Shown: one piece after another, positions 6,972 through 63,428 of the stretch
Layout: each line of letters begins with the position of its first letter
Numbering within the stretch: the first letter of the stretch is position 1
DNA from: Bacteroidota bacterium
GTDB taxonomy: Bacteria > Bacteroidota > Ignavibacteria > Tepidaquicellales > Tepidaquicellaceae
Assembly: GCA_018266845.1 (NCBI GenBank)
Contig: JAFDZO010000013.1
Location: forward strand, 1 to 64,000
Direction of reading: 5' to 3'
Length of the DNA stretch: 64,000 nt
The notes under the pieces: generated by a model
The model's input: only the letters and a program-made list of their open reading frames with translations
Databases searched by the model: none
Told to the model about the DNA's origin: nothing
Program-made: the position numbers and the translations under genes

Positions 6972-6979
6972 TTATATGT

Positions 6980-7002: not shown

Positions 7003-7025
7003 CGGAACATAAATTCTCATAGCTA

Positions 7026-7070: not shown

Positions 7071-7114
7071 TTATCACTTTTAAAAAGTAAAGAAAGTATT
7101 ACTTTTAGTCTCTT

Positions 7115-7492: not shown

Positions 7493-7501
7493 TATAATAA
7501 T

Positions 7502-9130: not shown

Positions 9131-9133
9131 CAA

Positions 9134-9634: not shown

Positions 9635-9676
9635 ATTTTATTATAATCTCTCAATAGTATATTCTCTCAAAGTAAA

Positions 9677-27667: not shown

Positions 27668-27674
27668 TATACTT

Positions 27675-27690
27675 AACAGTACATACTGTT
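27675..27690. repeat. Short palindrome after wbpD
   Basis: AACAGTA-CA-TACTGTT, 7 bp perfect, 8 nt after the stop codon in the 114-nt gap before the epimerase gene. No T tract follows. It could be an operator-like dyad or a chance palindrome. Confidence 0.35.
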
Positions 27691-27781
27691 GATTTTCATT
27701 TTTTACCGCTGATGTCTCATTTTTTAAAAAAGAATGTGAGGCAATTGGCGGAGCTTTGTTTAAAACTTTTAAAACCTCAGG

Positions 27782-28708: not shown

Positions 28709-28735
28709 CCACTAAAAAATAAAGGAAGGTATAAA

Positions 28736-30043: not shown

Positions 30044-30045
30044 AA

Positions 30046-32264: not shown

Positions 32265-33409
32265 TGATTCCAATCGGAAAAACATATTTTGATGAAGATG
32301 ATTTTAAAGCAGTAGTCGAGCCGCTAAAATCCGGCTGGGTGCTGCAAGGAAAATATGTTAAGGAATTTGAAGATGTTTTCAGTTCTTTTACTGATGTAAA
32401 AAATTCCGTTGCTGTATCTTCAGGCTCAACAGCGCTGCAGTTAGTTCTTTCAACTTACGGACTAAAAGAAGGCGATGAAGTAATTCTTCCCTCATTTACC
32501 TGGATTGCAACTGCAAACGCAATTGAATACACGGGCGCAAAACCTGTTTTTGTTGATATTGATTTATCTACATACAACATTGATGTAAATAAAATCGAAA
32601 ATGCTATTACGGAAAGAACGAAGGGAATTATTCCCGTTCATCTTTTCGGTTTGTGCGCAGATATGGATGCGATAAATTCCATAGCGAAGAAGCATAATTT
32701 GTTTGTGGTAGAAGATGCTGCATGTGCATTGGGTTCATATTATAAAGGCAGGCATTGCGGTTCATTCGGAGATTACGGATGTTTTTCATTTCACCCGCGC
32801 AAATCAATTACAACCGGTGAAGGCGGAATGATTACTACAAATGATGCGGCAAAATCTGATTTATGCAGGAGTCTTCGTAATCATGGAGCATCGGATAAAA
32901 AAGCATTGCCGTTTCTTTTATCTGATTATGATAATCTCGGATATAATTTCAGGATGACGGATATTCAGGGAGCTTTAGGGGTTTCCCAAATGAAGAAAAT
33001 AAATTTTCTTCTTGATGAAAGAAAGAAAGCAGCAGCTTTATATGATAAGCACCTAAGCAAAATTGAATGGCTGAATCTTCCGGCTGCTGGAAAAGATTAT
33101 ACTCACAGCTATCAGTCCTACGTATGTATGTTTATGCCTGAAGAAATAAATGAAAAAAATGTTGAAAAAATTTCTTCAAAGAGAAATGAATTTATGATGA
33201 TGTTAGAGCGCGAGGGGGCAGCCACAAGACAGGGGACTCACTCAGTTGCGCATCAGCAATACTACAAAAAAAAGTATTGTTTAGAAAACAGCGATTGTTT
33301 TAATTCAAAAGCAGCGGAAATGTGTACTATAGCTTTTCCGGTTTATCCCGGGATAAGCGAGAACGAAATAATATCTGTTGCCACAATTGCAGAAAAATAT
33401 AAGCCCTAA
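32264..33409 (+). CDS. DegT/DnrJ/EryC1 aminotransferase (perosamine-synthase-like)
   Basis: 381 residues from ATG 32264, which overlaps the upstream stop as TGATG; GTG 32261 is the alternative. The PLP lysine is about K180 in GCFSFHPRKSITTGEGGM. SSGSTALQLVLSTYG, LPSFTWIATANAIEYTGAKPVFVDID, IPVHLFGLCADMDAI and YNFRMTDIQGALGVSQM are standard for the 4-amino-sugar (GDP-perosamine/4-keto-6-deoxy) group. It may serve the nonulosonate branch (LegC role on the LegB product) or make a separate 4-amino-4,6-dideoxy sugar. It lacks the longer N-terminus I associate with LegC proteins. It ends the first block of the locus. Confidence 0.8.
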   Translation: MIPIGKTYFDEDDFKAVVEPLKSGWVLQGKYVKEFEDVFSSFTDVKNSVAVSSGSTALQLVLSTYGLKEGDEVILPSFTWIATANAIEYTGAKPVFVDIDLSTYNIDVNKIENAITERTKGIIPVHLFGLCADMDAINSIAKKHNLFVVEDAACALGSYYKGRHCGSFGDYGCFSFHPRKSITTGEGGMITTNDAAKSDLCRSLRNHGASDKKALPFLLSDYDNLGYNFRMTDIQGALGVSQMKKINFLLDERKKAAALYDKHLSKIEWLNLPAAGKDYTHSYQSYVCMFMPEEINEKNVEKISSKRNEFMMMLEREGAATRQGTHSVAHQQYYKKKYCLENSDCFNSKAAEMCTIAFPVYPGISENEIISVATIAEKYKP

Positions 33410-37618: not shown

Positions 37619-38323
37619 CTGTATAAAAAAAATAAAATAGCTGCGTTAATAACTGCCAGAGGCGGTTCGAAGGGAATTCCGAAAAAGAATATCATTAATC
37701 TTTGCGGAAAGCCTTTAATACATTGGACTGTTGAGGCTGCTATAAAATCAAAATTTGTTGATGAAATTTTTTTATCAACTGATTCAGCTGATATAATCAA
37801 AGCAGTAAAAAAATTTCCTGTTGAAGTCCCTTTCAGAAGACCAAAAAATTTATCTGGAGATAAAGCGACAAGCACCGATGTAATTCTTCATTTTATAGAT
37901 TGGATGAAGGAAAGCGGGAATGTTTACGATACATTACTTTTGCTCCAGCCAACTTCTCCATTCAGAAAAGCTGAACACATAGATAACTCTATTAAAAAAT
38001 TCTTATCAGATAGCAAGGCGTTATCGCTTATTTCCGTTACAGAAAATATTAAAAGTCCTTATCTCTCAAGAAAGATAAATTCAAAAAGTTATCTCGAAAA
38101 TATATTTAATGTAGAGAGTGAAAGAAGGAGGCAGGATATTCCTGTTACATACTATATTAACGGTGCAATATATTTAATGAGAATAAATGATTTTGAAAAG
38201 TACAAAACTTTTCAAACATCAAAGACTTTAGCTTATGAAATGCCGTATTATAATTCGATAGATATTGATGAACCGATGGATTTAAAAATTGCAGAACTAT
38301 ATTATAAACAAAAACTGATTTAA
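37619..38323 (+). CDS. legF: CMP-nonulosonate (acylneuraminate) cytidylyltransferase, probable CTG start
   Basis: About 234 residues. The N-terminal nucleotide-binding motif ALITARGGSKGIPKKNI begins at codon 37640, and the FLSTDS, LLLQPTSPFRKAEHI and ETxxIDxP-like YNSIDIDEPMDL blocks follow, so this is a complete CMP-sugar synthetase. The first ATG in frame (37904) is too far in and would remove the active site. Upstream of the motif the frame has no ATG, GTG or TTG before the legB stop at 37607. The best start is CTG 37619, giving a normal length. In the pathway it activates the nonulosonic acid with CTP. The role is clear; the exact sugar (Leg, Pse, Neu) is inferred. Confidence 0.82.
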   Translation: MYKKNKIAALITARGGSKGIPKKNIINLCGKPLIHWTVEAAIKSKFVDEIFLSTDSADIIKAVKKFPVEVPFRRPKNLSGDKATSTDVILHFIDWMKESGNVYDTLLLLQPTSPFRKAEHIDNSIKKFLSDSKALSLISVTENIKSPYLSRKINSKSYLENIFNVESERRRQDIPVTYYINGAIYLMRINDFEKYKTFQTSKTLAYEMPYYNSIDIDEPMDLKIAELYYKQKLI

Positions 38324-39177
38324 TGAATCATAGAGTAATAGCAAGGCTTGATATAAAAGGACCAAACTTAGTAAAGGGAATTCACCTTGAAGGATTGCGT
38401 GTCATGGGTAAGCCGGAAGAGTTTGCATCTTATTACAACGAAGCCGGCGCAGATGAATTATTATATATGGACGTAGTTGCAAGCTTGTATGACAGAAATA
38501 GCTTAAAAGATATTATAACAAGAACTGCAAAAGAAATTTTTATCCCGTTGACAGTCGGCGGCGGATTGAGAAGTATTGAAGACATAACGGAAGTTTTGCG
38601 TTATGGCGCAGATAAAGTATCGTTGAATACAGCAGCGATAAAAAATCCTGAAATTATTAGGCAGGCATCTGAAGCATTCGGCTCTTCTACAATTGTTATT
38701 GCAATAGAAGCAATAAAACAAAACGACGGTAAATATTTATGCTACACAGATAACGGGAGAGAATATACAGGTATTGATGCTTTTGAGTGGGCAGAGAAAG
38801 CGCAGGATTTAGGCGCGGGAGAATTGATTGTAACATCGGTTGATAAAGAGGGAACCGGTGAAGGTTTTGATATAGAGCTAACAAGGAAAATATCTGATGC
38901 TGTGAGAATTCCTGTAATTGCGCATGGAGGTCCGGGCAAGCTGGAGCATTTTGAAGAAATAATTCGTGAAGGAAATGCAGATGCAGTAACAGTTGCTTCA
39001 ATGATTCACTATGATTATGTTTCTAAAAATAAATCGCAGGGTGAATTTAAAGGTGAAGGAAATGTAACTTTTATTAACAGCGGAAAAGAATTCGGTAAAA
39101 TTAATAAAGCGGAGATTATGGATATAAAAAAATATTTATCGGAAAAAGGAATTGACTGCAGGTATATAAATGAATGA
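38323..39177 (+). CDS. HisF-like cyclase subunit of an N-acetyl-sugar amidotransferase system
   Basis: 284 residues, a TIM barrel of the HisF family (longer than the roughly 255 of HisF). ARLDIKGPNLVKGI retains the first catalytic aspartate (D10), PLTVGGGLRSIED and HGGPGKLEHFEEII are the phosphate-binding loops. The second catalytic position reads VIAIEAIK, with E129 where histidine-pathway HisF has Asp (D130 in Thermotoga numbering). It lies in a polysaccharide locus with a HisH-like glutaminase and a PP-loop sugar amidotransferase. It is therefore the WbuZ/HisF2 type that channels ammonia, not histidine biosynthesis. Confidence 0.86.
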   Translation: MNHRVIARLDIKGPNLVKGIHLEGLRVMGKPEEFASYYNEAGADELLYMDVVASLYDRNSLKDIITRTAKEIFIPLTVGGGLRSIEDITEVLRYGADKVSLNTAAIKNPEIIRQASEAFGSSTIVIAIEAIKQNDGKYLCYTDNGREYTGIDAFEWAEKAQDLGAGELIVTSVDKEGTGEGFDIELTRKISDAVRIPVIAHGGPGKLEHFEEIIREGNADAVTVASMIHYDYVSKNKSQGEFKGEGNVTFINSGKEFGKINKAEIMDIKKYLSEKGIDCRYINE

Positions 39178-39850
39178 AGAAAAGAAATATCAGGTCGCAA
39201 TAATTGATTATGAAATGGGAAACATGTTCAGTGTTGACCATGCCTGCAAATACGTCGGCTTGAACTCAATTATTACAGAGGATAAAGATGTAATTATGAA
39301 CTCAGATGCAGCCATACTTCCGGGAGTAGGCGCTTTTGGAAACTGTATGGCAAATTTAAACAAGCTTGATTTGGTTTCTCCCATAAAAGATTTTGTTGCA
39401 TCGGGAAAACCGTTCCTTGGAATTTGTCTTGGGCTTCAACTGCTTTTTACTGAAAGTGAAGAGTTTGGTCTCTCACGAGGGTTGGATTTGATACAAGGTA
39501 AAGTTGTAAGATTCCCAAGTGAAAATACTGTTGGAAAAAAATTAAAAGTACCGCAAGTTGGTTGGAATCATATTTATGAGAATAAACAAAATGAAAATCA
39601 CTGGGGCAATTCTATATTAAAGGATACCACATCAAAGGAGTTTATGTATTTCGTGCATTCTTACTATGTAAAACCTGATAACGATAATGACATTCTTACT
39701 TTAACAAACTATGAAGGAATAGAATATTGTTCCGGTGTAAAAAAAAATAATATCACCGCTTTTCAGTTTCATCCTGAAAAAAGCGGACATGAAGGAATAA
39801 AAATTTATAAAAACTGGGTTACAGAAATTAAAAATTTTAAAGAAAATTAA
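39170..39850 (+). CDS. HisH-like class I glutaminase subunit (WbuY/HisH2 type)
   Basis: 226 residues with a full class I glutamine amidotransferase triad: nucleophile C86 in LGICLGLQLLF, and His and Glu in the FQFHPEKSGHEG segment near the C-terminus. PGVGAFGNCM is the oxyanion-strand region. The family normally partners HisF; here its start overlaps the HisF-like gene by 8 nt and its end overlaps the sugar amidotransferase. It releases ammonia for transfer to the sugar substrate. Lacking other his genes nearby, a histidine role is unlikely. Confidence 0.87.
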   Translation: MNEEKKYQVAIIDYEMGNMFSVDHACKYVGLNSIITEDKDVIMNSDAAILPGVGAFGNCMANLNKLDLVSPIKDFVASGKPFLGICLGLQLLFTESEEFGLSRGLDLIQGKVVRFPSENTVGKKLKVPQVGWNHIYENKQNENHWGNSILKDTTSKEFMYFVHSYYVKPDNDNDILTLTNYEGIEYCSGVKKNNITAFQFHPEKSGHEGIKIYKNWVTEIKNFKEN

Positions 39851-41079
39851 TGAGCAATAAATTAGAAGCGTACTATGGACTTCCTGAAGAAGTAAAATTC
39901 TGCAAGAAGTGTGTGATGTCGAATCAAAGACCGGCTTCAACTCCTGAATTCAAACACACTATTGAAAGCAAAAAAACTACTCTTAATATTGGAGAAGACG
40001 GAATCTGCGATGCTTGCAGGGTAAACGAAGGAAAAGAAAATATTGACTGGGAAAAAAGGGAGCAGGAGCTTCTAAAGCTTCTTGATAAACATAGAAGAAA
40101 CGATGGCAAGTATGACTGTATAGTACCCGGCAGCGGCGGAAAGGATAGCGCGTATCAGTCATGGATGCTAAAGTATAAATACGGAATGAACCCATTGACG
40201 ATAACGTGGCCTCCGATTTTATATACGGATTACGGTTATCAGAACTGGAAGAACTGGGTTGAGGTTGGCGGTTTTGATAATCTTACGTTCAAGCAGAACG
40301 GAAGAATAATGAAACTTCTGACAAGATTATCTATTGAAAATTTATTTCACCCATTTCAGACATTTATTCTTGGGCAGAAAAATCTTGCACCCAAGATTGC
40401 AATAAATTATGATATACCTCTTATTTTTTACGGTGAGAATGAAGCTGAGTACGGTAATCCAATCGCTGACGATGCGACTTCACTGAGAGATAAATCTTAC
40501 TTCAGCATGACTCACTTAAAAGATATGTATCTTGCAGGTGTATCTATAGAAGAGTTAATGGAAAAATATGATGTAAAGCTAGCTGACCTTATGACATTCT
40601 TACCCGCTGACCATGACCAGCTTGAGAAATCAAAAATCGAAGTTCATTACCTTGGTTATTATTTGAAATGGGTTCCGCAGGAAGTTTATTATCATGCAGT
40701 TGAGCATACGGGATTCAAGGCGCGTCCGTTCAGAACGCAGGGTACGTATTCCAAGTATAACAGCATAGACGATAAGATAGATGATTTACATTATTATACT
40801 ACATTCATAAAGTTCGGTATAGGAAGAACAACATACGATGCTTCTCAGGAAATAAGAAATAAACATTTGACAAGAGAAGAGGGACTTGCTCTTGTGAAAA
40901 AATTTGACGGCGAATTTCCTGACAGATATTTCAAAGATATAATGTCTCATATAGGCATGACCGAAGAAAGATTTTTTGAGCTTGCAGATAAATTCCGCTC
41001 ACCGCATTTATGGGGTAAGGATGCTGAAGGAAACTGGAAGCTAAGGCATACAGTAAATAAGACAGGCTTAGACGACTAA
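39850..41079 (+). CDS. N-acetyl-sugar amidotransferase (WbuX/PseA/WbpG type)
   Basis: 409 residues with a PP-loop ATP-pyrophosphatase fold. Two cysteine pairs FCKKCVMSNQRPAS and GICDACRVNEG form a zinc knuckle; the PP-loop is VPGSGGKDSAYQSW. The blocks YGENEAEYGNP and FGIGRTTYDASQEIRNKHLTREEG are family-specific. These enzymes use ammonia to turn an N-acetyl into an acetamidino group, on 2,3-diacetamido uronic acids (WbpG) or nonulosonates (PseA). Both kinds of substrate could be made here, so the true one is open. It is directly coupled to the HisF/HisH-like partners. Confidence 0.88.
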   Translation: MSNKLEAYYGLPEEVKFCKKCVMSNQRPASTPEFKHTIESKKTTLNIGEDGICDACRVNEGKENIDWEKREQELLKLLDKHRRNDGKYDCIVPGSGGKDSAYQSWMLKYKYGMNPLTITWPPILYTDYGYQNWKNWVEVGGFDNLTFKQNGRIMKLLTRLSIENLFHPFQTFILGQKNLAPKIAINYDIPLIFYGENEAEYGNPIADDATSLRDKSYFSMTHLKDMYLAGVSIEELMEKYDVKLADLMTFLPADHDQLEKSKIEVHYLGYYLKWVPQEVYYHAVEHTGFKARPFRTQGTYSKYNSIDDKIDDLHYYTTFIKFGIGRTTYDASQEIRNKHLTREEGLALVKKFDGEFPDRYFKDIMSHIGMTEERFFELADKFRSPHLWGKDAEGNWKLRHTVNKTGLDD

Positions 41080-42078: not shown

Positions 42079-42707
42079 AAGTTGTAGGATTTGATTTAGA
42101 TGATACGATCTACTTGCACTGGGATTACGAAAAAATTCTTTTCGACACAATAGCAAAATCTATTGAATATAAGTTCGGATTTGAGAAAGAAAAAGTTTTC
42201 GCTGAAATGCAGAAGCTTTTTGATGCGAAAGATTTTGACAGATTGTTTGATAAGGCTGTAATCAATAGCAAATATGAACTGCCCGAAGAGTGGGATGAAT
42301 TTGTAACAAGCAAAATTCTTCCATTCTATAGGAATCATAAACCTGATTCCAAATTAAAACCATTTGAATGGGTAAATGTTTTACTCAGCCAAATTAGAGA
42401 AAAAGGTTGTAAGTTAGTTCTGATAACAAACGGTGGTGCAAAGATTCAAAGAAATAAAATTGAGTTATTGAATCTTTCAAATCATTTTGATAAAATTTAT
42501 ATCTCTGATGAGTTTAATCCTCCAATGAGAAAGCCGGATTTAAAAATATTTGAAAAAGTTTTGGAAGATTTTAATGTGAAGGCGAATGAAATGATTTATA
42601 TAGGAGATTCCATGGAGAAAGACGGAGCATGTGAAAAACTCGGAATAAAATTTTTATTATTTTCAGATTACAAAAAATTATACGAAATACTTGATATAGC
42701 TCAATGA
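42075..42707 (+). CDS. HAD-superfamily hydrolase
   Basis: 210 residues, a subfamily IA HAD phosphatase. Motif I is FDLDDTIYLH with nucleophile D7 and acid D9; motif II is LITNGGAKIQ; motif III/IV are KPDLKIFEKV and YIGDSMEKDGACEKLG. The helical cap follows motif I. The overlap with the ATP-grasp gene (TTGA) and with legI (4 nt) suggests joint expression. It may dephosphorylate a sugar-phosphate intermediate, but LegI condensation does not itself need a phosphatase. Substrate not known. Confidence 0.8.
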   Translation: MKVVGFDLDDTIYLHWDYEKILFDTIAKSIEYKFGFEKEKVFAEMQKLFDAKDFDRLFDKAVINSKYELPEEWDEFVTSKILPFYRNHKPDSKLKPFEWVNVLLSQIREKGCKLVLITNGGAKIQRNKIELLNLSNHFDKIYISDEFNPPMRKPDLKIFEKVLEDFNVKANEMIYIGDSMEKDGACEKLGIKFLLFSDYKKLYEILDIAQ

Positions 42708-43708
42708 AGAGAACTTTTATTATAGCAGAAGCAGGTGTAAATCATAACGGGCAGCTTGATTTAGCATATAAGCTTGTTGATGAAGCTGTAAAAGCAGGAG
42801 CAGATGCAGTAAAATTTCAGACGGCAGTTCCTGAACTTGTGATGACAGAATATGCCACAAAGGCAGAGTATCAGATAACAAACACCGGTGAAGCAGGCTC
42901 GCAAATCGAGATGGCAAAGAAAATTCATCTGCCCCTTGATGCGTATAAAGGATTAAAAGAATATTGCGAAAAGAATAATATTATTTTTTTATCAACACCA
43001 TTTGATATGAAATCATTGGAGCTTTTGCTTAGCTTCAATATGCCTTATATGAAAGTTCCTTCAGGTGAGATAACAAATTATCCTTACCTGAAAAGAATTG
43101 GTGAGCAGAATATGAACGTGATTATTTCAACAGGAATGTCAACGCTCGATGATGTCAGGGAATGTTTAAATTTAATAATTTCTTCCGGCACTGATAAAAA
43201 TAAAGTTACGCTGCTGCATTGCACAACGGAATACCCGGCTCCATTGCAGGATGTTAATCTAAAAGCAATGCTGGCATTGAAAGATACATTTGGAGTTAAC
43301 GTTGGATATTCAGATCATACTAAAGGAATAGAAATTTCAATTGCTGCTGCTGCTATGGGAGCAACCGTAATTGAAAAACATTTTACGCTGGATAAAAATA
43401 TGGAGGGACCTGATCATGTTGCATCTCTTGAACCTAATGAACTTGCAGAAATGGTAAGATGTATTCGGAATGTAGATTTAGCAATGGGAGATGGTGTAAA
43501 ACAAATTGTTTCTTCGGAAGAAAAAAATATTGTAATTGCGCGAAAAAGCATTTTAGCTGCTCACGATATAAACGAAGGTGAAATTTTTACTGATAAAAAT
43601 TTAATCGTTAAGAGACCGGGTAATGGAATAAATCCTATGAGATGGAATGAAGTTGTAGGTAGAAAAGCGAAAAGAAAATTTTCTAAAGACGAACTAATAG
43701 AGCTTTGA
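42704..43708 (+). CDS. legI: Nonulosonate synthase, LegI/NeuB type
   Basis: 334 residues. The NeuB TIM barrel begins FIIAEAGVNHNGQLDLAYKLVDEA with the usual GADAVKFQT, FDMKSLELL, KVPSGEITNYPYLKRI, STGMSTLDDV, LLHCTTEYPAP and VGYSDHTKGIE motifs, and the metal site IEKHFTLDKNMEGPDHVASL. The C-terminal SAF antifreeze-like domain (about 275-330) follows. It condenses phosphoenolpyruvate with a 6-deoxy or N-acetyl mannosamine-type sugar. With legB and PtmE-like neighbours, legionaminic acid is more likely than sialic acid. Confidence 0.9.
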   Translation: MKRTFIIAEAGVNHNGQLDLAYKLVDEAVKAGADAVKFQTAVPELVMTEYATKAEYQITNTGEAGSQIEMAKKIHLPLDAYKGLKEYCEKNNIIFLSTPFDMKSLELLLSFNMPYMKVPSGEITNYPYLKRIGEQNMNVIISTGMSTLDDVRECLNLIISSGTDKNKVTLLHCTTEYPAPLQDVNLKAMLALKDTFGVNVGYSDHTKGIEISIAAAAMGATVIEKHFTLDKNMEGPDHVASLEPNELAEMVRCIRNVDLAMGDGVKQIVSSEEKNIVIARKSILAAHDINEGEIFTDKNLIVKRPGNGINPMRWNEVVGRKAKRKFSKDELIEL

Positions 43709-44859
43709 AAAAGAAAATTTGCATAGCAACGGGAACAAGAGCGGAGTACGGGTTGCTTCAGCCGTTAATGAATCTTATTAAGAAAGATAAATCTTTTGAG
43801 CTTCAGATTGTTGCGACTGCAATGCACTTATCTCCCGAGTTTGGAATGACTGTGAATGAAATTGAAAGAGATGGATATAAAGTAAATGAAAAAATTGAAA
43901 TGCTGCTCTCGGCTGATACAGATACGGCAATTGTAAAAGCAATGGGGCTTGCAATGATTAGCGCTGCCGATGTTTTTAAAAAATTAAATCCTGATTTGCT
44001 TGTTATTCTTGGCGACAGGTTTGAAATGCTTGCGCTTGCCCAGTCTGCTTACCTTATGAATATTCCTATTGCTCACATAGCAGGAGGTGAAACAACTGAA
44101 GGAGCATTTGATGAAGGAATAAGGCATTCGATTACAAAAATGTCTTCACTTCATTTTGCGGCTACGGAGATTTACAAGAAAAGAATTATTCAGCTTGGTG
44201 AAAACCCGGATAGAGTGTTTAATGTTGGCGCATTAGGGCTTGATAACATAAAGAATATGAAGCTCATTTCAAAACAGGATTTGGAAAAAGATTTGAAGCT
44301 ACGATTTGATAGCAAGACTGCTCTTGTAACTTTTCACCCTGTAACATTAGAGAAAGAGTCTCCCAAGAAGCAGTTTGAAAAATTATTAAAAGCATTTGAA
44401 AAATTTCATGAGTTAAAATTAATTTTCACGATGCCGAACTCTGATACGGGCGGCAGAGAAATTATTGCAATGATAAATAAGTATTCAGAGCAAAGAGAAA
44501 ATGCTTATGCTTTTACAAACCTTGGACAGAAGAGATATTTGTCAACTTTGAAATATGTTGATTTGGTTATAGGAAATTCTTCCAGCGGGATTGTGGAAGT
44601 TCCTTTCATGGGAATACCGACCTTAAATATTGGGGACAGACAAAAAGGCAGAATAATGGGAGAGAGCATTGTTAATGTAAAGTGTGATGAAAGAGAAATT
44701 GTGAAAGGAATTACTGCTTGCCTCAATAGGAAAAAAGCTATCGGCAAAATGAAAAACCCTTATGGTAATGGAACGGCAGCAAAGCAGATGTTAAATATTA
44801 TCAAGAAGAAAACCGGAAAAATTTCTTCTAAGAAAAAATTTTTTGATTTAGATTTTTAA
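43705..44859 (+). CDS. legG: Hydrolysing NDP-sugar 2-epimerase, LegG/NeuC type
   Basis: 384 residues, GT-B-like UDP-GlcNAc 2-epimerase superfamily. ICIATGTRAEYGLLQPLM at the N-terminus is the NeuC/LegG signature; VILGDRFEMLALAQSA, HIAGGETTEGAFDEGIRHSITKMSSLHF and GNSSSGIVEVPFMGIPTLNIGDRQ are also diagnostic. It hydrolyses the nucleotide sugar and inverts C2 to deliver the mannosamine-type substrate to LegI. The start is TTG, 4-nt overlap with legI. The substrate nucleotide (GDP or UDP) cannot be told from sequence alone. Confidence 0.9.
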   Translation: MKKKICIATGTRAEYGLLQPLMNLIKKDKSFELQIVATAMHLSPEFGMTVNEIERDGYKVNEKIEMLLSADTDTAIVKAMGLAMISAADVFKKLNPDLLVILGDRFEMLALAQSAYLMNIPIAHIAGGETTEGAFDEGIRHSITKMSSLHFAATEIYKKRIIQLGENPDRVFNVGALGLDNIKNMKLISKQDLEKDLKLRFDSKTALVTFHPVTLEKESPKKQFEKLLKAFEKFHELKLIFTMPNSDTGGREIIAMINKYSEQRENAYAFTNLGQKRYLSTLKYVDLVIGNSSSGIVEVPFMGIPTLNIGDRQKGRIMGESIVNVKCDEREIVKGITACLNRKKAIGKMKNPYGNGTAAKQMLNIIKKKTGKISSKKKFFDLDF

Positions 44860-44860
44860 A

Positions 44861-45934
44861 ATGGAAGATAAGCAAAAATTATCGAAGTATATAGTTTCGC
44901 ATAAAGCAACGCTGAAAGATGCGATTAATCAGTTAGATGCAGGCGGTGAAAAAATTTTGTTTGTTGTAAACCATGACAATAAACTTTTTGGAGCATTAAC
45001 AGACGGTGATTTGAGAAGATTTATTCTTTCCGATGGCGACTTTAAAACGACTGTTGAAAATGTATGCAACAAAAAACCGATAAAAATTTTAGAGCCATAC
45101 GATTTAGAGAAAATTAAAAGATTAATAATCGAGAAGAAATTATCTGCTGTTCCTGTAGTAAATGACTGCAATGTTCTGGTTGATATTTTATTCTGGGAAG
45201 AGATATTCGATTCAACTGAACATAGAAAGCCAAAGTCCAGCCTTTCAAATCCCGTTGTCATAATGGCGGGCGGAAAAGGAACACGCTTAGATCCTTTTAC
45301 AAAGATATTGCCGAAGCCATTAATCCCTATTGGAGATAAGCCGATAATTGAAATAATAATTGATAAGTTTGTTGATTACGGAGTTAATGATTTCTATCTC
45401 ACATTAAACCATAAATCAAAAATTATTAAATCTTATTTCGAGGAGCTTTCTCCTTCATTCAATGTTGAGTTTGTTCTTGAAGATAGTCCTTACGGAACAG
45501 CAGGGAGCATTAATCTTTTGAAGGGAAGATTTAGCGAACCGGTAATAGTAACAAATTGCGACATCATTATTGATTGCGATTATCATGATTTTGTTACCCA
45601 TCACACGAAAAATAAATTTGATTTGACTTTGGCTGCATCCCTGAAAAATTACAAAATTCCCTATGGTATTTGCGAATTAAGTAATGGAGGCGTGCTGGAA
45701 AAAATTGTAGAAAAGCCGGAGTATAACTATCTGGTTAATACCGGTATGTATGTTTTGAATCCTGATATGATTAAACTAATTCCTGAGAAAAAACACTTTG
45801 ATATGACAGACTTTATGGAGGTAATAAAAAGCAGCGGCGGAAAAGTGGGTGTTTATCCTATAAGCGAAAGCTCATGGATAGATACGGGAGAGTGGGCTGA
45901 GTATAAAAAAGCTGTACAAAAAATTTCTTTTTAA
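44861..45934 (+). CDS. ptmE: CBS-domain sugar-1-phosphate nucleotidyltransferase (PtmE-like)
   Basis: 357 residues. Two CBS motifs (about 1-118; VNHDNKLFGALTDGDLRR and LSAVPVVNDCNVL) precede a nucleotidyltransferase domain starting VVIMAGGKGTRLDPFTKILPKPLIPIGDKPI. SPYGTAGSINLL, TNCDIII (metal Asp), ISESSWIDTGEWAEY complete it. This two-part layout is that of PtmE, which makes GDP-GlcN in the Campylobacter legionaminic route, and of related GDP-mannose pyrophosphorylase-like proteins. It supports a GDP-linked pathway here. It starts 1 nt after the legG stop. Confidence 0.82.
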   Translation: MEDKQKLSKYIVSHKATLKDAINQLDAGGEKILFVVNHDNKLFGALTDGDLRRFILSDGDFKTTVENVCNKKPIKILEPYDLEKIKRLIIEKKLSAVPVVNDCNVLVDILFWEEIFDSTEHRKPKSSLSNPVVIMAGGKGTRLDPFTKILPKPLIPIGDKPIIEIIIDKFVDYGVNDFYLTLNHKSKIIKSYFEELSPSFNVEFVLEDSPYGTAGSINLLKGRFSEPVIVTNCDIIIDCDYHDFVTHHTKNKFDLTLAASLKNYKIPYGICELSNGGVLEKIVEKPEYNYLVNTGMYVLNPDMIKLIPEKKHFDMTDFMEVIKSSGGKVGVYPISESSWIDTGEWAEYKKAVQKISF

Positions 45935-53305: not shown

Positions 53306-54478
53306 TTGAGCAGTGAATTAAATGTAGTTTGTTTGGGCGGCTTCAGCTATCCGAACGGAATGGCTGGAACTAAAAGAGTGCAGTTTTTTATTGACAGATT
53401 TAACGAAAAAAAAATCCCCGTCAGTGTAATCACAATAGGAAATTTTGGAGACAGTAAATCAGGAAACAATTCAAAGGGAGTTAGCGGCACAACAAAATTT
53501 TTTAATTACGGGGCTTCGCTTCCGGCTTCTTTAATAAGTTATTTTTTCCTTCCACTTCTAATTTTACTTGCAGGGATAAAAATTTTAGTAATACGAAAAA
53601 GCGGGCTGAAAAACATTCTTTATGTTTACAATAGCATCTCAGTAGATTCGTTTTTAGTGGTGTTGTTTGCAAGGGGCTTAGGGTATAAGGTTGTTGCAGA
53701 TATTGTTGAAGATTATAGGGTGATTAATGAAAACATAAGTTTTCCTTTAAGAATAAAATATAAGCTGATAAATTTTTTTGAAGGAAGAATTCACCTTTTT
53801 TGTGATAGGGTTGTTGTGCTTTCAAGCTATTTAAAAGATTTTTTTGTAAAACAGCTAAACGTTAAAATTCCGGTCGAATTAATACCCGTATCTTCTAATC
53901 TCAAAGCAGAGAGTAAGTCGAAAGAAAAATTCCACTCGCCGCTAAAAATTTCCTATACAGGCTCGTTTGCTAAAAAAGACGGGCTTCAATTTTTGATAAA
54001 TGCCTTCAATGAATTTAGCAAAAAATTTACTGACTCCCAGCTCTTGCTGACAGGCATAGGAAATAATCCTCAAAAATTAGTTGAAGACTCAAAAAATTCT
54101 AAAATAAAATACATCGGCTATTTATCCGATGAAGAATACTATAACTTTTTACTTGATGCTGATATTCTTTGTATGACAAGGCTGAATACAAAATTTGCTA
54201 ATGCAGGGTTTCCGTTTAAACTGGGAGAATATCTTGCAACGGGCAATCCGGTTGTAGTTACAGATGTAAGCGACATCTCTGATTACCTTGAAAATAATAT
54301 TGACGCTAAAATTGTTCCGCCGGAAAATTCGCATGCGCTGTGCGCAGCCCTAACAGAGTATGCAGAGGACTTTAAAGCTGCTTCTAAGATTGGCGAGCGG
54401 GGAAAAGAGAAGGCTCTGAAGTTTTTTAATTATCAAATTAACGGCGATAAACTTATAGATTTAATGAAAAAAATCTGA
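53306..54478 (+). CDS. Family 4-type glycosyltransferase
   Basis: 390 residues, GT-B fold. The N-terminal LGGFSYPNGMAGTKRVQFFIDRF glycine-rich strand is followed by a hydrophobic region (about 75-95) and the C-terminal donor domain with ISYTGSFAKKDGLQFLINAFNEF, YIGYLSDEEYYNFLLDADILCM and FPFKLGEYLATGNPVVVTDVSDI (the E-x7-E-like site). TTG start. The stop codon overlaps the ATG of the next gene (TGATG). It likely adds one sugar to the repeat unit; donor unknown. Confidence 0.83.
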   Translation: MSSELNVVCLGGFSYPNGMAGTKRVQFFIDRFNEKKIPVSVITIGNFGDSKSGNNSKGVSGTTKFFNYGASLPASLISYFFLPLLILLAGIKILVIRKSGLKNILYVYNSISVDSFLVVLFARGLGYKVVADIVEDYRVINENISFPLRIKYKLINFFEGRIHLFCDRVVVLSSYLKDFFVKQLNVKIPVELIPVSSNLKAESKSKEKFHSPLKISYTGSFAKKDGLQFLINAFNEFSKKFTDSQLLLTGIGNNPQKLVEDSKNSKIKYIGYLSDEEYYNFLLDADILCMTRLNTKFANAGFPFKLGEYLATGNPVVVTDVSDISDYLENNIDAKIVPPENSHALCAALTEYAEDFKAASKIGERGKEKALKFFNYQINGDKLIDLMKKI

Positions 54479-56355
54479 TGTGCGGAATAGCCGGATATAT
54501 TAATTTTGATAAGTCAAGACCTGCCTTGCAGAATATTATTAAAGGCATGACTGATATTATCTCGCACAGAGGACCCGACGGCGAAGGATTTTATATTAAA
54601 GAAAATCTTGCTCTCGGGCATAGAAGACTTTCTATAATTGATTTATCTACCGGGGATCAGCCGATGTTCAGTCCAGATAAATCAATCGTAATTGTTTTTA
54701 ACGGAGAGATATATAACTACATTGAGCTTAGAGAGGAATTAAAATCACTCGGGCATTCATTTATTACTACATCGGATACGGAGGTTATTATACATGCGTA
54801 TATGCAGTGGGGGGTTGACTGCCAGAATAAATTAAACGGATGTTGGGGATTTGCAATTTGGGATGATAATAAGAAACAACTTTTTATTTCAAGAGACCGG
54901 CTGGGCGAAAAACCAATGCATTATGCAATATGGAATAACTCTTTTGTATTCGGTTCTGAGATTAAAAGTCTTTTCAGTTTTGGTGTGCCGGGTGATATGG
55001 ATGATTCACTTCTTGAGATTTATTTCTTTCTGAAATTTATCCCGTCTCCTTATACTTTTTTTAAGCAGATAAAAAAGCTTAAACCCGGTCATTTTCTCCT
55101 GATAAATGGCAGTGAAATAAAAGAGCGGAAATATTGGGATCTGCCCGAGATTGATGAAAAGAATATGCTTTCTGATACTAAGGAGATAAACAATAACTTT
55201 GAATTTTTGCTAAAAGATTCGGTTAATATCAGAATGAGAAGTGATGTTCCATTCGGCGCTCTTTTAAGCGGAGGGCTTGATTCTGCAAGCGTTGTTGCGC
55301 TTATGTCGGAGATTTCAAAATTTCCTGTTGAAACATTCACAATTGGATATGATGACGCTTCATTTGATGAAACAGATTTGGCTAAAGATGCAGCAAATAA
55401 ATTTAATACAAATCATCACTCATACAAAGTTGAAGCGGAGTCATTTGAAGATTCTTTAAGAAAAATTTTATTTCATTATGATGAGCCTTTTGGAGACGCT
55501 TCTGCAATTCCCACAGGAATAGTTTCAAGATATGCCAGAAAATTCGTTAAGATGGTTTTAACGGGCGATGGCGGTGATGAGGTGCTTTGCGGTTACCCGT
55601 CTTTTCAGGGAGTAAAGCTTTCATCGTATTACAAAAAAGCTCCATCCTTGCTGCGAAAAAGTTTACCCGGAACACTTAATATTTTTTCAAAAGCAGTAAG
55701 AGGAAATGCAAGATATAAAATAAACAGGTATGAAAGACTGTTCAGAAGTGCGAATTCAGATTTTATCACGAGTATGATAGAGCGAATGCCGACAAATGAT
55801 ATGCGCTCCGTTAAAGCTTTATTCCCGCAAAACAGTAAAATTTACAGCATAGAGGATTACATGAATGACTTCATGAAAAATTGTTCTTATAAAGATGATT
55901 TTTATAAGCTAATGTACATCAGCTTTAAACTTTTTCTTCCTGACGACTATCTTGTAAAAGTTGATAGAATGTCTATGGCATATTCGCTTGAGGCGCGTGT
56001 TCCTTTCATAGACCACAGATTGGTTGAGTATATGGTTGGAGTAGATAAAAATGTGAAAATGAAGAAGTTTGAAAGAAAAAGTGTTTTGCGGGAGACGGTG
56101 GGAAAGAAGCTGCCTGCTTCCCTTCTTACGGCAGTAAAGAAAGGTTTTTCAGTTCCGATAGTAGAGTGGTTCAAAGCAGATACAATGCAGCCAAATCTTG
56201 AAGCTCTTTACAGTGAAGATATTGGTTTAAATAAAGATGTAATCAAGAATTTTGTAAAAGAAAATACAGAAGGAAAAAAAGATAACAGCAACATAATCTG
56301 GATGTTAATGCTGCTGAGAGAAACACGCAGGAAAAATGAATACGAGCTTGCCTAA
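54478..56355 (+). CDS. Asparagine-synthase-like glutamine amidotransferase (1 of 2)
   Basis: 625 residues. The class II glutaminase domain has the nucleophile C2 (MCGIAGYIN), ISHRGPDGEGFY, GHRRLSIIDLSTGDQPM and NGEIYNY. The synthetase PP-loop is LLSGGLDSASVVALM with LTGDGGDEVLCGYPSF. In capsule loci such enzymes (WbpS-type) amidate the carboxyl groups of uronic or nonulosonic acids rather than aspartate. The locus makes such acids, so that is preferred here. It overlaps both flanking glycosyltransferase genes (1 and 20 nt). Confidence 0.88.
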   Translation: MCGIAGYINFDKSRPALQNIIKGMTDIISHRGPDGEGFYIKENLALGHRRLSIIDLSTGDQPMFSPDKSIVIVFNGEIYNYIELREELKSLGHSFITTSDTEVIIHAYMQWGVDCQNKLNGCWGFAIWDDNKKQLFISRDRLGEKPMHYAIWNNSFVFGSEIKSLFSFGVPGDMDDSLLEIYFFLKFIPSPYTFFKQIKKLKPGHFLLINGSEIKERKYWDLPEIDEKNMLSDTKEINNNFEFLLKDSVNIRMRSDVPFGALLSGGLDSASVVALMSEISKFPVETFTIGYDDASFDETDLAKDAANKFNTNHHSYKVEAESFEDSLRKILFHYDEPFGDASAIPTGIVSRYARKFVKMVLTGDGGDEVLCGYPSFQGVKLSSYYKKAPSLLRKSLPGTLNIFSKAVRGNARYKINRYERLFRSANSDFITSMIERMPTNDMRSVKALFPQNSKIYSIEDYMNDFMKNCSYKDDFYKLMYISFKLFLPDDYLVKVDRMSMAYSLEARVPFIDHRLVEYMVGVDKNVKMKKFERKSVLRETVGKKLPASLLTAVKKGFSVPIVEWFKADTMQPNLEALYSEDIGLNKDVIKNFVKENTEGKKDNSNIIWMLMLLRETRRKNEYELA

Positions 56356-57500: not shown

Positions 57501-59402
57501 ATGTGCGGTATAACCGGGTTAATTAATTGCGGAAGCGAACATGCTTTAAACGAAATGACCTCTGTAATTGAGCATAGAGGTCCTGATGATTACGGTATAA
57601 AATGGTTTCATCATACCAATTCAGGTTTCGGGCACAGGCGTTTATCAATTATAGATTTAAGTCCGGCTGGTCATCAGCCGATGTGTAATGATGCCGGAAA
57701 TCTGTGGATAACTTATAACGGGGAAATTTATAATTATAAAGAAGTCAGGAAATCCTTAACTACTCTTGGTTATAAATTCAAATCTCATTCCGATACCGAA
57801 GTAATTCTCAAAGCTTATGAAGAATGGGGAGTTGAATGCCTTGAGCGTTTCAACGGAATGTTTGCATTTGCAATTTACGATGCTGAAAAAGAAAAGCTCT
57901 TCGGAGCACGGGATAGAACCGGTGTAAAACCTTTTTATTATTCACAATTTGGGGAGTCTTTTGCTTTTGCATCTGAAATCAAAGCAATATTAAAAGCAAA
58001 GCTATTCCCGAACGAAATTGATTATGAAGCAATTTATACTCCGATTCATTATCAGATAACTCCAAAAACAGGATTCAAAAACATCAATAAGCTCCCTGCC
58101 GGATGTTATTTTATATTTGAGAACGGCAAACTGACTGTAAAAGATTATTGGAAAATCACTCCTTCAGAGAATTATGACATAACTGAAGACCAAGCTGTAG
58201 AAAAATTAAACGAGCTTCTCATAAGCGCAATTGATTATCAAATGGTTGCCGATGTTCCTGTCGGGATATTGCTTAGCGGCGGGTTAGACTCTTCCATTAT
58301 AGCTTCCTTAATGGGAAGGAACACCGATAAGCAGATAAAATCTTTTACTATTAAATTCAAGCAGGAAGATTTAAAAAAACAGGGGAACGTTGATGACAGT
58401 TACTATGCGAAAAAAGTTGCGGAGAAATTTAACTTTGACCATAAGGAAATTCTCATCGAACCGGATATAATAAATCTGTTTCCAAAAATTGTATGGCATC
58501 TTGATGAACCGATGGCTGACCCTTCTACGATTAATACTTATTTGATTTCACAAGCTGCAAGAGAAGAAGGAATAGTTGTGCTGTTAAATGGAATGGGAGG
58601 TGATGAAATTTTCGGAGGATACCGTTCATATCTTGCCTGCCTTGCTGCCGACCATTATCAGAAATTTGTTCCAAAGTTTCTCGATGCAATTTTCAGGAGC
58701 ATTTTATCAAGAATTCCCCAGGCTTCCAGAAAAAGAGATTACAAATATATTCGATGGGTAAAAGAGTATATGAATTTCTCGAATATGGATCAGTTCGACA
58801 GGTATATTACATCGGGCAATGTTTCACTGACAGATAGAAATTTTAATGAGTACTATTTGAATTGTCCTTACAGGATAACGGACTGCTTTTACTACAAAAA
58901 GCAGCGAAAACTCTTTTTTGATAATGATATGTCTTACCTGACGAAGATTTGCCTAAATGATACGAGAGTATATATGACAGACCACAATCTTACATGCGCT
59001 GATAAGCCTGCAATGGCGGCAAGCGTAGAGGGAAGACCTCCTCTGACGGACCATAGAATAATTGAGTTTATGTTTTCGCTTTCGCCCGATGCCCGTATTC
59101 ATAAGCGAGTGCAGAAGTATCTGCTTAAAAAGGTATCTGAAAAGTATCTCCCGAATGAAGTTGTTTACAGACCCAAAGCCCCTTTCAGCGCACCTATGCG
59201 CTCATGGCTGAAAGGTTCACTATCAGAATTTGTCGGAGATGTTTTGTCGGAAGAATCTGTTAAAAGAAGAGGAATATATAATCATGCTTATGTAACGCAG
59301 TTAATTGAAAAAAATAAAAAAGGATTAGAAGATAATTCACAATTAATTTGGAGACTCCTTACAAACGAAATGTGGCTGCGAACTTTTTTTGACGGAAAGT
59401 AA
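57501..59402 (+). CDS. Asparagine-synthase-like glutamine amidotransferase (2 of 2)
   Basis: 633 residues with C2 (MCGITGLIN), IEHRGPDDYGIK, GHRRLSIIDLSPAGHQPM, NGEIYNYKEV and the PP-loop LLSGGLDSSIIASLMG; GMGGDEIFGGYRSYL follows. Distinct from the 54478 copy in its C-terminal part and therefore not a recent duplicate. It may amidate a second acidic sugar, or the two may act at different stages. Its end overlaps the next gene by 14 nt. Confidence 0.88.
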   Translation: MCGITGLINCGSEHALNEMTSVIEHRGPDDYGIKWFHHTNSGFGHRRLSIIDLSPAGHQPMCNDAGNLWITYNGEIYNYKEVRKSLTTLGYKFKSHSDTEVILKAYEEWGVECLERFNGMFAFAIYDAEKEKLFGARDRTGVKPFYYSQFGESFAFASEIKAILKAKLFPNEIDYEAIYTPIHYQITPKTGFKNINKLPAGCYFIFENGKLTVKDYWKITPSENYDITEDQAVEKLNELLISAIDYQMVADVPVGILLSGGLDSSIIASLMGRNTDKQIKSFTIKFKQEDLKKQGNVDDSYYAKKVAEKFNFDHKEILIEPDIINLFPKIVWHLDEPMADPSTINTYLISQAAREEGIVVLLNGMGGDEIFGGYRSYLACLAADHYQKFVPKFLDAIFRSILSRIPQASRKRDYKYIRWVKEYMNFSNMDQFDRYITSGNVSLTDRNFNEYYLNCPYRITDCFYYKKQRKLFFDNDMSYLTKICLNDTRVYMTDHNLTCADKPAMAASVEGRPPLTDHRIIEFMFSLSPDARIHKRVQKYLLKKVSEKYLPNEVVYRPKAPFSAPMRSWLKGSLSEFVGDVLSEESVKRRGIYNHAYVTQLIEKNKKGLEDNSQLIWRLLTNEMWLRTFFDGK

Positions 59403-60603: not shown

Positions 60604-62649
60604 ATGTGCGGAATATTTGGATTAATAGTAAAAGAAAATTCTGATTACGAATATGGATTTGTAAAAAAACTTACTGAAGAGTTAGCGCTTTTTTCTGAAT
60701 CCAGAGGAAAGGAATCGGCAGGTTTTGCGATTTATAATCCTCTACTAAATAAAATTTCAGTTATTAAAGGCGCAGAAACTGTTTCTAAGTTAATTGACAA
60801 TGGGAAGTTCGACACCTTTTTTTATCAATCGAACGGAATAGACAAACGCGAACTAAAGAGTAAAATAAAATCCTCTTTTGCTTTAACAGGACATTCACGT
60901 CTTGTAACAAACGGAACACAGCTTCTGGATTTTAATAATCAGCCTGTGATTAAAGATGGTATAGTAGGTATTCATAACGGAATTATTACCAATGTAGATG
61001 AGCTTTGGCAAAAATTTTCGGAGCTTAAGAGAGAGTGCGAAGTGGATACAGAGATACTGCTTTCTCTAATCCGCAAATTTATAAATGATGGCTGCCCGCT
61101 GGATGAGTCGTTTGTAAAAGTATTTAACTTGATTAAAGGTGCGGCTTCCATTGCTTTCATGTTTGAAGATAAAAACTGCCTTGCTCTTTTTACGAATTGC
61201 GGCTCATTATATTCTGTAACGAATGAAAGGAACGATGTATTGATATTTGCTTCCGAAGAATATTTTCTGAAGGAATTGATGCAAATAAAAAGCATAAGTA
61301 ATTCATTGGGCAATTATACCATAAAGCAGCTTCCGTCTTTTTCAGGATTGCTCTTTAAAATCAGCACGCTTGAATCAGAAGAAGTTAAAACGAAGGAAAA
61401 TTATTCCTCTAAAGGAATTTGTTTTGATTCCGGCAGTAAGTTTGAAATCGAGTATAAGCCTGAAGGAATAAAACCATTCATTCCGGCAAATATTTCTGCT
61501 TCTGAAGACGCAAAGTTAAAAAATCTTTTAAAGTATGATTTTGAAACAGTAAGCAAATTAAAGCGGTGCGCAAAGTGCCTGCTTCCCGAGACTTTTCCTT
61601 TTATTGAATTTGATTCACAGGGAATCTGTAATGTCTGCAAAAATTATAAACCTTCTTCTCACCCTGATTCATTCGATAAGCTGATGGAGCTTGTAGAGCC
61701 TTACCGAAGCAAGAACGGAGGCATTGACTGCATTGTTCCGTTTAGCGGGGGGCGCGATAGCTCGTATTCGCTTCACATGATTAAGAAAGAGCTGAAGTTA
61801 AACCCTATTACGATAACATATGACTGGGGAATGGTTACAGATTTAGCAAGAAGAAACATTGCTCGCGTTACAGGAAAGCTTGGAGTTGAAAATATACTCG
61901 TTTCCGCCGATATAAAAATGAAACGCGAAAACATCAGGAAAAATGTTACTGCATGGCTACGAAAACCGGCTTTAGGAATGATTCCTCTTTTTATGGTAGG
62001 GGATAAATATTTTTTTTATCACACAATGGAGCTGCGAAAGAAAACAGGTGTGAGATTAAATTTATGGGGCTCTAATAAGTTAGAGAATACTGATTTTAAA
62101 GTCGGCTTCTGCGGAGTCGGGTTGGATTTTGATAAAAAACGAATTGATGCTTTAAAGCTAAAAAATGTTTTTAAATTGATAGGATTTTACGGAGGAAATT
62201 TTCTCACTAATCCTTCTTATTTAAACTCATCACTATATGATACTTTCGGGGCATTTCTTTCCCGGTATGTGCGCGAGCGAAAAGATTACTATCATTTTTT
62301 TGATTATATTCAATGGGATGAACATAAAATAGAAGACACAATAATTAATGAGTATGAATGGGAAACTGCGCCGGATACAAAATCAACGTGGAGAATAGGA
62401 GACGGCACTGCCGGATTTTATAATTATATTTATTATTCTGTAGCCGGTTTTTCTGAAATTGATACATTTAGAAGTAACCAAATAAGAGAAGGAATGATTA
62501 CCAGAGAGCAGGGCTTAAAGTATATTCAGGAAGAAAATGCGCCAAGATATGAATCACTTAAATTTTATTTTGATACAATCAATCTGGATTTTGAGAAGGC
62601 TATAAACATTATAAACAACATTCCAAAGTTATATAAGGATAAAGTATAA
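60604..62649 (+). CDS. Fused class-II glutaminase plus PP-loop N-acetyl-sugar amidotransferase
   Basis: 681 residues. The N-terminal about 250 residues are an Ntn-type glutamine amidotransferase: C2 (MCGIFGLIV), SRGKESAGFAIYN, TGHSRLVTNGTQ and NQPVIKDGIVGIHNGIITN, which resembles the GlmS/PurF domain. From about 320 the protein is a WbuX/PseA-like module: Cys pairs LKRCAKCLLPETFP (C322) and GICNVCKNY, PP-loop VPFSGGRDSSYS (about 378-389) and GITREQGL-like GMITREQGLKYI near the end. The single chain thus carries its own ammonia source. It probably makes an amidine or amide on a second sugar of the glycan. Confidence 0.85.
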   Translation: MCGIFGLIVKENSDYEYGFVKKLTEELALFSESRGKESAGFAIYNPLLNKISVIKGAETVSKLIDNGKFDTFFYQSNGIDKRELKSKIKSSFALTGHSRLVTNGTQLLDFNNQPVIKDGIVGIHNGIITNVDELWQKFSELKRECEVDTEILLSLIRKFINDGCPLDESFVKVFNLIKGAASIAFMFEDKNCLALFTNCGSLYSVTNERNDVLIFASEEYFLKELMQIKSISNSLGNYTIKQLPSFSGLLFKISTLESEEVKTKENYSSKGICFDSGSKFEIEYKPEGIKPFIPANISASEDAKLKNLLKYDFETVSKLKRCAKCLLPETFPFIEFDSQGICNVCKNYKPSSHPDSFDKLMELVEPYRSKNGGIDCIVPFSGGRDSSYSLHMIKKELKLNPITITYDWGMVTDLARRNIARVTGKLGVENILVSADIKMKRENIRKNVTAWLRKPALGMIPLFMVGDKYFFYHTMELRKKTGVRLNLWGSNKLENTDFKVGFCGVGLDFDKKRIDALKLKNVFKLIGFYGGNFLTNPSYLNSSLYDTFGAFLSRYVRERKDYYHFFDYIQWDEHKIEDTIINEYEWETAPDTKSTWRIGDGTAGFYNYIYYSVAGFSEIDTFRSNQIREGMITREQGLKYIQEENAPRYESLKFYFDTINLDFEKAINIINNIPKLYKDKV

Positions 62650-63428
62650 TGGCTTTTGATTTTACATTAACTGCTTTTGAAAATATTTTACGCGCCGCTT
62701 TAGATGCCGGATATAAATTTGATACCTTTGAAAATTTTATGAACGGCAAAAGTAATCATGAAAAACTGGTTCTTTTAAGGCATGATGTTGATAAAAAACC
62801 ATATAATTCGCTTGCAACCGCTAAGCTCGAAAATAATCTTGGTATAGCTTCATCTTATTATTTCAGAATTGTTGATTCAAGCAATGACCCGAACGTTATA
62901 AAACAAATCAGGGATTTGGGACACGAAATAGGTTATCACTATGAAGAAATGGATTTAGCAAACGGAAATACTGATGAGGCGGTCAAAATTTTTGAAAAAA
63001 ATCTTGCTTATTTCAGAACGTATTATCCGGTTGTTACAATTTGTATGCACGGAAGCCCTATGTCAAAATTTGACAACAAAGATATTTGGAAAAAAGCAAA
63101 CTACCGAGATTACGGAATAATAGGTGAGCCGTACTTTGATGTTGATTTCTCAAAGTTTGGATACCTGACCGATACAGGTAGAAGCTGGAACGGCGAAAAA
63201 GTAAGCGTAAGAGACAAAGTAAAGAACAGTCCGTACAGTTTTAATCTTAAAACTTCTTTTGAAGTGATTGAAGCATTTAAAGCGAATAAGCTTCCGCCAA
63301 AGATAATGATAACCACTCATCCTCAGCGTTGGAATAATAAACTGCTTCCATATATAACAGAGTTTGTTATGCAAAAAACAAAAAATTTTGTTAAGGCAAT
63401 AATAGTTAAGAAAAACTCCGGCAAATAA
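62649..63428 (+). CDS. Polysaccharide-deacetylase-like (carbohydrate esterase 4-type) protein
   Basis: 259 residues. The Asp-x-Asp metal motif is RHDVDKKP (D46 and D48), followed by GHEIGYHYEEMDLA (His pair for metal and base), CMHGSPMSKFDNKDI and the C-terminal TTHPQRW histidine. These fit the NodB-fold deacetylases. No signal peptide, so action on a cytoplasmic intermediate is likely, for example removal of an N-acyl group. The stop of the fusion gene overlaps its start (TAATGG). No motif fixes the substrate. Confidence 0.78.
   Translation: MAFDFTLTAFENILRAALDAGYKFDTFENFMNGKSNHEKLVLLRHDVDKKPYNSLATAKLENNLGIASSYYFRIVDSSNDPNVIKQIRDLGHEIGYHYEEMDLANGNTDEAVKIFEKNLAYFRTYYPVVTICMHGSPMSKFDNKDIWKKANYRDYGIIGEPYFDVDFSKFGYLTDTGRSWNGEKVSVRDKVKNSPYSFNLKTSFEVIEAFKANKLPPKIMITTHPQRWNNKLLPYITEFVMQKTKNFVKAIIVKKNSGK

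Follow-up and report, generated by a model that had tools for sequence, protein, structure and literature searches.

A single open reading frame in the genome of a Bacteroidota bacterium joins a PurF/GlmS-type glutaminase to a PP-loop synthetase of the N-acetyl-sugar amidotransferase (NASAT) type, and the encoded protein probably works unaided as an acetamidino synthetase, a glutamine-dependent N-acetyl-sugar amidotransferase acting on a diacetamido-uronate-type sugar, with the three-protein system of the same locus (the trio of HisF-like, HisH-like and classical NASAT proteins) acting on a nonulosonate. The whole stretch analysed, 64,000 nucleotides of contig JAFDZO010000013.1, is referred to as the window. 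The fusion is an uncharacterised, mis-annotated variant spread over several phyla, and no account of it was found in the literature searched, which covers few subscription journals. Its layout in the window is as follows:

60604 to 62649, plus strand: fusion ORF, glutaminase plus NASAT-type PP-loop synthetase, ATG start, 681 aa
60604 to 61389, plus strand: glutaminase domain of PurF/GlmS-type Ntn fold, residues ~1-262 (Pfam GATase_6/7)
61390 to 61539, plus strand: variable linker, residues ~263-312 (alignment and low model confidence)
61540 to 62646, plus strand: NASAT-type PP-loop synthetase domain, residues ~313-681 (TIGR03573 and 8WEX fold)
61567 to 61638, plus strand: zinc-type tetracysteine, C322-x2-C325 ... 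C342-x2-C345 (alignment; as in 8WEX)
61744 to 61764, plus strand: PP-loop SGGRDSS, residues 381-387 (translation and alignment)

The reading frame is free of internal stops and its product begins MCGIFG, the codon of Cys2 lying at 60607-60609. The N-terminal part matches Pfam GATase_6 (1.7e-9, 38.2 bits, cut-off 27) and GATase_7 (2.9e-9, 37.4 bits, cut-off 25), and its Cys2, R34-G35, GHSR, HNGI..N and D148 align with GlmS and PurF of the same genome. The Cys2 nucleophile and the glutamine-binding motifs are common to the fusion and the GlmS/PurF glutaminase domains, but only in the fusion is the Ntn glutaminase attached to a PP-loop synthetase, and the residue after the HTR motif is Trp in GlmS, Tyr in PurF and Leu in the window's fusion. 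By HMM score as well as by fold, PurF/GlmS are nearer to the domain than AsnB is: an HMM built on this part of the fusions gave 65 bits for PurF of the same genome, 62 for GlmS and 16-18 for AsnB-type proteins, and the N-terminal part of an AlphaFold2 model (five-sequence alignment, mean pLDDT 69, pTM 0.72, with pLDDT <50 over linker residues 265-300) matches PurF at Z 23.1 and the GlmS glutaminase 1xff at Z 21.0 (PurF/GlmS Z 20-23 vs AsnB Z 17).

The synthetase half is matched by TIGR03573 (WbuX/NASAT) over residues 320-661 (3.2e-42) at 145 bits, which does not reach the curated cut-off of 203.2; the PP-loop domains of the other fusions score 109-147 bits, all likewise under it. Since the fusion lies outside the curated NASAT family, its acetamidino product is something we infer, as we do its glutaminase activity, ATP chemistry, acceptor sugar and ammonia tunnel. 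Residues 318-681 of the model, which is of moderate confidence, match the NASAT structure 8WEX (LpNASAT) at Z 22.1 over 316 residues (rmsd 4.2), and C322, C325, C342 and C345 satisfy the pattern CxxC-Xn-[GN]xCxxC, a tetracysteine of the same type as in 8WEX (PMC10607449). With WbuX/WbpG the fusion shares this tetracysteine, the PP-loop SGGxDS, the fold and a polysaccharide locus; it differs in forming a separate clade below the cut-off, in carrying SGGRDS in every case and in having its own class II glutaminase. Apart from the motif residues, only P401, N418 and R634 stay nearly invariant across fusions and classical NASATs, so the acceptor site of the fusion may differ from that of NASAT. Pfam Asn_synthase (PF00733) is absent from the fusion at E 0.1, whereas both AsnB-like genes of the window match it at 3e-86 or better.

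The initial annotation had described a GlmS/PurF-type glutaminase joined to a NASAT-type PP-loop domain, with the Cys pairs and SGGRDSS intact, and the Pfam, TIGR03573 and fold matches bear this out. Its assignment of the C-terminal half to the same PP-loop family as the classical enzyme holds as regards homology, motifs and the 8WEX fold, but goes too far in that the TIGR03573 cut-off is missed (145 vs 203 bits). Likewise, the talk of convergent solutions is right for the glutaminase and the ammonia supply, which have been reinvented; the synthetase halves are homologous, and convergence is therefore confined to the glutaminase/ammonia part.

A search for the fusion, which the annotation had proposed, was run over 395 genomes of the phylum, a plasmid collection and a genome collection, and it returned full-length fusions from Bacteroidota, a WWE3 bacterium, a Solidesulfovibrio plasmid (Desulfovibrionales) and Agrobacterium plasmids, making a set of 20 distinct intact orthologues from 19 genomes or records; none was found among the viral contigs and phages searched. 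All 20 have Cys straight after the start codon (GTG in one), the tetracysteine and SGGRDS, and the aligned fusions also retain the GlmS/PurF motifs (Arg-Gly, H[SA]R/HTR, HNGI..N and Asp); neither half is degenerate. With 20 distinct full-length orthologues keeping the same residues, the fusion is far beyond chance. When TIGR03573 was run on 391 Bacteroidia genomes, two main groups and a few divergent stand-alone proteins emerged, the groups being the classical NASATs (>200 bits, frames of ~370-430 aa, 51 genomes over the cut-off) and the fusions (132-147 bits, frames of ~600-684 aa, 14 genomes). Trees of the PP-loop domain, whose roots are not fixed, gather the fusions in a single clade with full support, where an N-truncated copy and a frame-split one join them, and so suggest that the fusion arose once; this clade is closer to the NASAT clade free of NeuB than to the NeuB-linked clade that holds the window's trio. 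At 9846-11051 of locus L074 (contig C21 of genome G663) lies a decayed fusion, its synthetase half open and remnants of the glutaminase upstream in other frames, and at 9631-11572 of locus L082 (contig C90 of genome G635) the fusion runs in two overlapping frames, broken near the linker by a genuine split or by an error of assembly. Some NASAT relatives are without the zinc tetracysteine and have CxxG...GxSNYA or similar, with SGGTDS or SGGVDS (L032:5922-7073, L069:14525-15685, L125:15385-16533, L130:13904-15046 and L136:9179-10423); two of them were scored, both above the TIGR03573 cut-off, and in 4/5 loci they are paired with a cysteine-bearing NASAT or a fusion.

In the classical version, HisH is the glutaminase, HisF the channel and NASAT the synthetase. 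The neighbourhood of the fusions is of another kind: HisH/HisF lie within 6 kb of 15 of the 16 uronate-type NASATs (a grouping against nonulosonate NASATs in which a few rows were assigned by neighbourhood, not by tree), but of only 1 of the 20 fusions, and this one exception, G373, has its own separate NASAT-type gene beside them. At E<=1e-15, HisH was not found genome-wide in the fusion carriers G479 (single contig, 98% complete) and G663 (90%), nor at E 1e-15 in G635 (94% complete, with the split fusion). A classical NASAT is missing from 7 of the 15 fusion-bearing Bacteroidia genomes, G635 included. That HisH/HisF are rarely near the fusions and that HisH is not found in some of the genomes is most simply explained if the ammonia comes from the fused domain. 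The statement that a classical NASAT needs HisF/HisH proved too strong, since in the nonulosonate clade 10 of 22 NASATs lack both within 6 kb, on contigs that are partly truncated (e.g., G448, G433, G481 and G452). The co-occurrence of fusion and classical NASAT (8/15 vs 43/376 genomes, p = 1.6e-4) was set aside as evidence, being confounded by relatedness, with NASATs common anyway in the family to which the window's genome belongs.

The window itself carries the classical version as well, followed by genes for a nonulosonate:

38323 to 39177, plus strand: HisF-like ammonia-channel subunit (His_biosynth 1e-63; WbuZ 263 bits and HisF 278 bits, both under cut-offs)
39170 to 39850, plus strand: HisH-like class I glutaminase (TIGR01855, 204 bits)
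39850 to 41079, plus strand: classical NASAT of the nonulosonate-linked clade (TIGR03573, 356 bits, over cut-off; tree)
42704 to 45934, plus strand: NeuB, NeuC and a PtmE-like nucleotidyltransferase (TIGR03569, 486 bits; TIGR03568, 494 bits; PtmE from a reading of the ORF)

The three-protein system that had been placed at 38323-41079 is thus real, its NASAT scoring over the cut-off, and the locus does hold two different ammonia systems, as had been claimed. The NeuB, NeuC and PtmE-like genes after the trio are consistent with a legionaminic-type sugar, and PtmG of Campylobacter makes CMP-Leg5Am7Ac (PMC3766260). Elsewhere in the same genome (G000), contig C46 carries at 4549-12198 (locus L036) three further NASATs, two homologues each of HisH and HisF, and a NeuB nearby, which brings the NASAT-type synthetases of the genome to five.

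The acceptor of the fusion is suggested by cassettes that contain a WbpI-type 2-epimerase. Members of this subfamily have 52-63% mutual identity and their best PDB match is 8SXV (293-319 bits, with CapG behind at 177-186), a UDP-2,3-diacetamido-2,3-dideoxyglucuronate (UDP-GlcNAc3NAcA) 2-epimerase (PMC10622841); the idea that the adjacent epimerase might belong to an L-FucNAc pathway (FnlC/CapG-type) was dropped on these scores (8SXV 293 vs CapG 177 bits). A GT-B-like protein (GT; DUF354 in one case) accompanies the epimerase and, by position only, is a putative equivalent of WbpH. The gene order is HisH, HisF, GT, epimerase and NASAT in G188 and G534; GT, epimerase and fusion in locus L007 and in G663; and HisH, HisF, cysteine-less NASAT, GT, epimerase and fusion in G373. 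In G424, the GT-epimerase pair is flanked by a fusion on one side and by a cysteine-less NASAT and then a second fusion on the other. In P. aeruginosa, PA3148-PA3152 are wbpI, wbpH, wbpG, hisF2 and hisH2 (PMC4783410), and like WbpG the fusion in some genomes sits after the wbpH-position gene and wbpI. In those cassettes, it stands where the cysteine-bearing NASAT similar to WbpG is found elsewhere, an arrangement in support of a reaction there that forms an acetamidino group on a 2,3-diacetamido-uronate-type sugar; in G373 and G424, another NASAT-type protein stands in the same cassette, and the fusion is therefore no simple substitute there. At >=55% identity, the WbpI subfamily occurs in 7 of 391 genomes, 6 of them with an adjacent NASAT-type protein or fusion, while a broader search at E 1e-60 gave matches in 262/391 genomes and was dropped as an uninformative marker. 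The subfamily was not found in the window's own locus, where the nearest protein is a 2-epimerase of a related, more distant subfamily on contig C4 at 68.8 kb, 6 kb downstream of the fusion.

Further sugar-pathway genes of the window are these:

27083 to 33409, plus strand: diacetamido-uronate pathway, with WbpD-like (27083), TviC-like epimerase (27782), WbpA-like (28736), WbpB-like (30046) and WbpE-like (32261) genes
31068 to 32264, plus strand: L-2-hydroxyglutarate oxidase (547 bits), between the WbpB- and WbpE-like genes
54478 to 56355, plus strand: AsnB-like amidotransferase (nearest model eps_aminotran_1, under cut-off)
57501 to 59402, plus strand: second AsnB-like amidotransferase (Pfam and family models)
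62649 to 63428, plus strand: putative deacetylase-like neighbour (weak PdaB match only)

The WbpB of P. aeruginosa reoxidises its NADH with 2-oxoglutarate, and the oxidase may dispose of the 2-hydroxyglutarate if the window's WbpB does the same; an L-2-hydroxyglutarate oxidase adjoins WbpB in genome G483 too. The best PDB matches in the window are 3Q2I for the WbpB-like and 3MQG for the WbpD-like protein. Relatives of the 62649-63428 product adjoin fusions or NASATs in other loci. The linkage to wbpABDE had been considered as proof of the acceptor, and it is weakened by a control: 59 of 149 Bacteroidia genomes carry WbpD, which agrees with its known part in making T9SS linking sugars. Of the 15 Bacteroidia genomes with a fusion, 14 have it, often far off or on another contig. 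With wbpABDE common in Bacteroidia, finding them close to the fusion says little about the acceptor. In Bacteroidota, these genes also serve the T9SS linking sugar (PMC7468200), and for this reason, together with the frequency of WbpD and the specific WbpI subfamily not being in the window, the acceptor in the window is only probable.

Several other readings of the fusion have to be weighed against this one. Database names would put it in another known family, a reading that we regard as practically negligible: the orthologues at NZ_CP026539.1 15728-17692 (Solidesulfovibrio) and NZ_CP045856.1 219988-221802 (Agrobacterium) are labelled 7-cyano-7-deazaguanine synthase and glucosamine 6-phosphate synthetase, respectively, but the window's fusion scores 13.8 bits against the QueC model (cut-off 150.3) and 45 bits against glmS (cut-off 418), with no match to the isomerase (SIS) domain. 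That the glutaminase half is dispensable or decaying, with ammonia taken up free or delivered in trans by HisH, would fit the copy of G663 that lost its glutaminase and the halves in different frames of G635; it is nevertheless very unlikely, given that Cys2 and the core glutaminase motifs are present in all 20 intact orthologues, whatever their phylum, and that HisH was not detected in some fusion genomes.

As to the substrate, it is quite unlikely that the fusion acts on a nonulosonate as the trio does, e.g., at a second N-acetyl position of the legionaminic-type sugar that the trio would modify. Fusion and NASAT do lie no more than ~30 kb apart in 7 of the 8 Bacteroidia genomes carrying both, and acetamidino-bearing legionaminic derivatives are known (PMC3766260); however, several fusions are in genomes without any classical NASAT, and NeuB lies within 10 kb in 18 of 22 loci of the trio's NASAT clade vs 0 of 20 fusion loci (Fisher p = 2e-8, relatedness uncorrected). 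Of the earlier suggestion that the two systems serve two sugars or positions, this genome context supports two sugars. Unlikely, too, is amidation of the uronic-acid carboxyl to a uronamide, in the manner of WbpS/AsnB-type enzymes, in place of the conversion of N-acetyl to acetamidino. In its favour are the AsnB-like overall layout (Ntn glutaminase and PP-loop synthetase), the uronate pathway genes near several fusions and the score under the NASAT cut-off. Yet two enzymes of the AsnB type (54478 and 57501) are present in the locus in any case, members of the family that has been shown to form uronamides (PMC7468200, with the role of WbpS), and the one at 54478-56355 is likely a uronamide former; moreover, the fusion has no Asn_synthase domain, its C-terminal domain matches 8WEX with the tetracysteine kept, and its position in the cassette is that of NASAT.

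For a self-contained acetamidino synthetase, the reaction would run as follows. The Ntn domain, with Cys2 as nucleophile, would hydrolyse glutamine, and the ammonia would travel within the single chain to the PP-loop domain, which would use ATP (giving AMP + PPi) to activate the acceptor N-acetyl (amide) of a nucleotide- or lipid-linked sugar; displacement of the activated oxygen by ammonia would then yield N-C(=NH)CH3. The fusion alone would thereby do the combined job of HisH, HisF and NASAT. In the window, the trio would most likely serve a legionaminic-type nonulosonate and the fusion, also most likely, another sugar of the 2,3-diacetamido-2,3-dideoxyuronate (WbpABDE/WbpI) type. A more speculative thought, which we hold unlikely, arises from G373 and G424, where the fusion and a cysteine-less NASAT sit by WbpI, and perhaps from the window: one polymer could have two different N-acetyl groups converted, each by an amidotransferase whose ammonia supply is unrelated to the other's, in which case the fusion would be a distinct class with its own acceptor position, not a one-piece WbpG. 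As surface decorations, acetamidino sugars are basic and may carry a positive charge, and such double conversion, if true, would give multiply cationic polysaccharide units.

The closest kin in layout are AsnB and its relatives (WbpS, beta-lactam synthetase), in which an Ntn class II glutaminase or a derivative of it is followed by a PP-loop ATP-pyrophosphatase in one chain, as in the fusion. The parts differ, however, the glutaminase of the fusion being of the PurF/GlmS type (65/62 vs 16-18 bits) and its synthetase of the NASAT type with no Asn_synthase, and the AsnB-like layout was probably built independently from other glutaminase and PP-loop branches. Tannerella forsythia Tanf_01265, a 605 aa AsnB-like protein, has been suggested as the enzyme that makes the acetamidino group of Pse (PMC6120980); compared by description, not by sequence, it resembles the fusion in the single chain, the predicted AsnB layout and the acetamidino proposal, and differs in being described as an AsnB-domain protein. 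The enzymology of acetamidino sugars has been little explored; according to a 2023 structural paper, little is known of the synthetase. The fusion family corrects database names (QueC, GlmS, hypothetical) across several phyla, and the one-chain version, if true, would make the reaction, the ammonia route and the acceptor simpler to test. The AsnB layout, an Ntn glutaminase with a PP-loop synthetase, would then have been made a second time from other parts.
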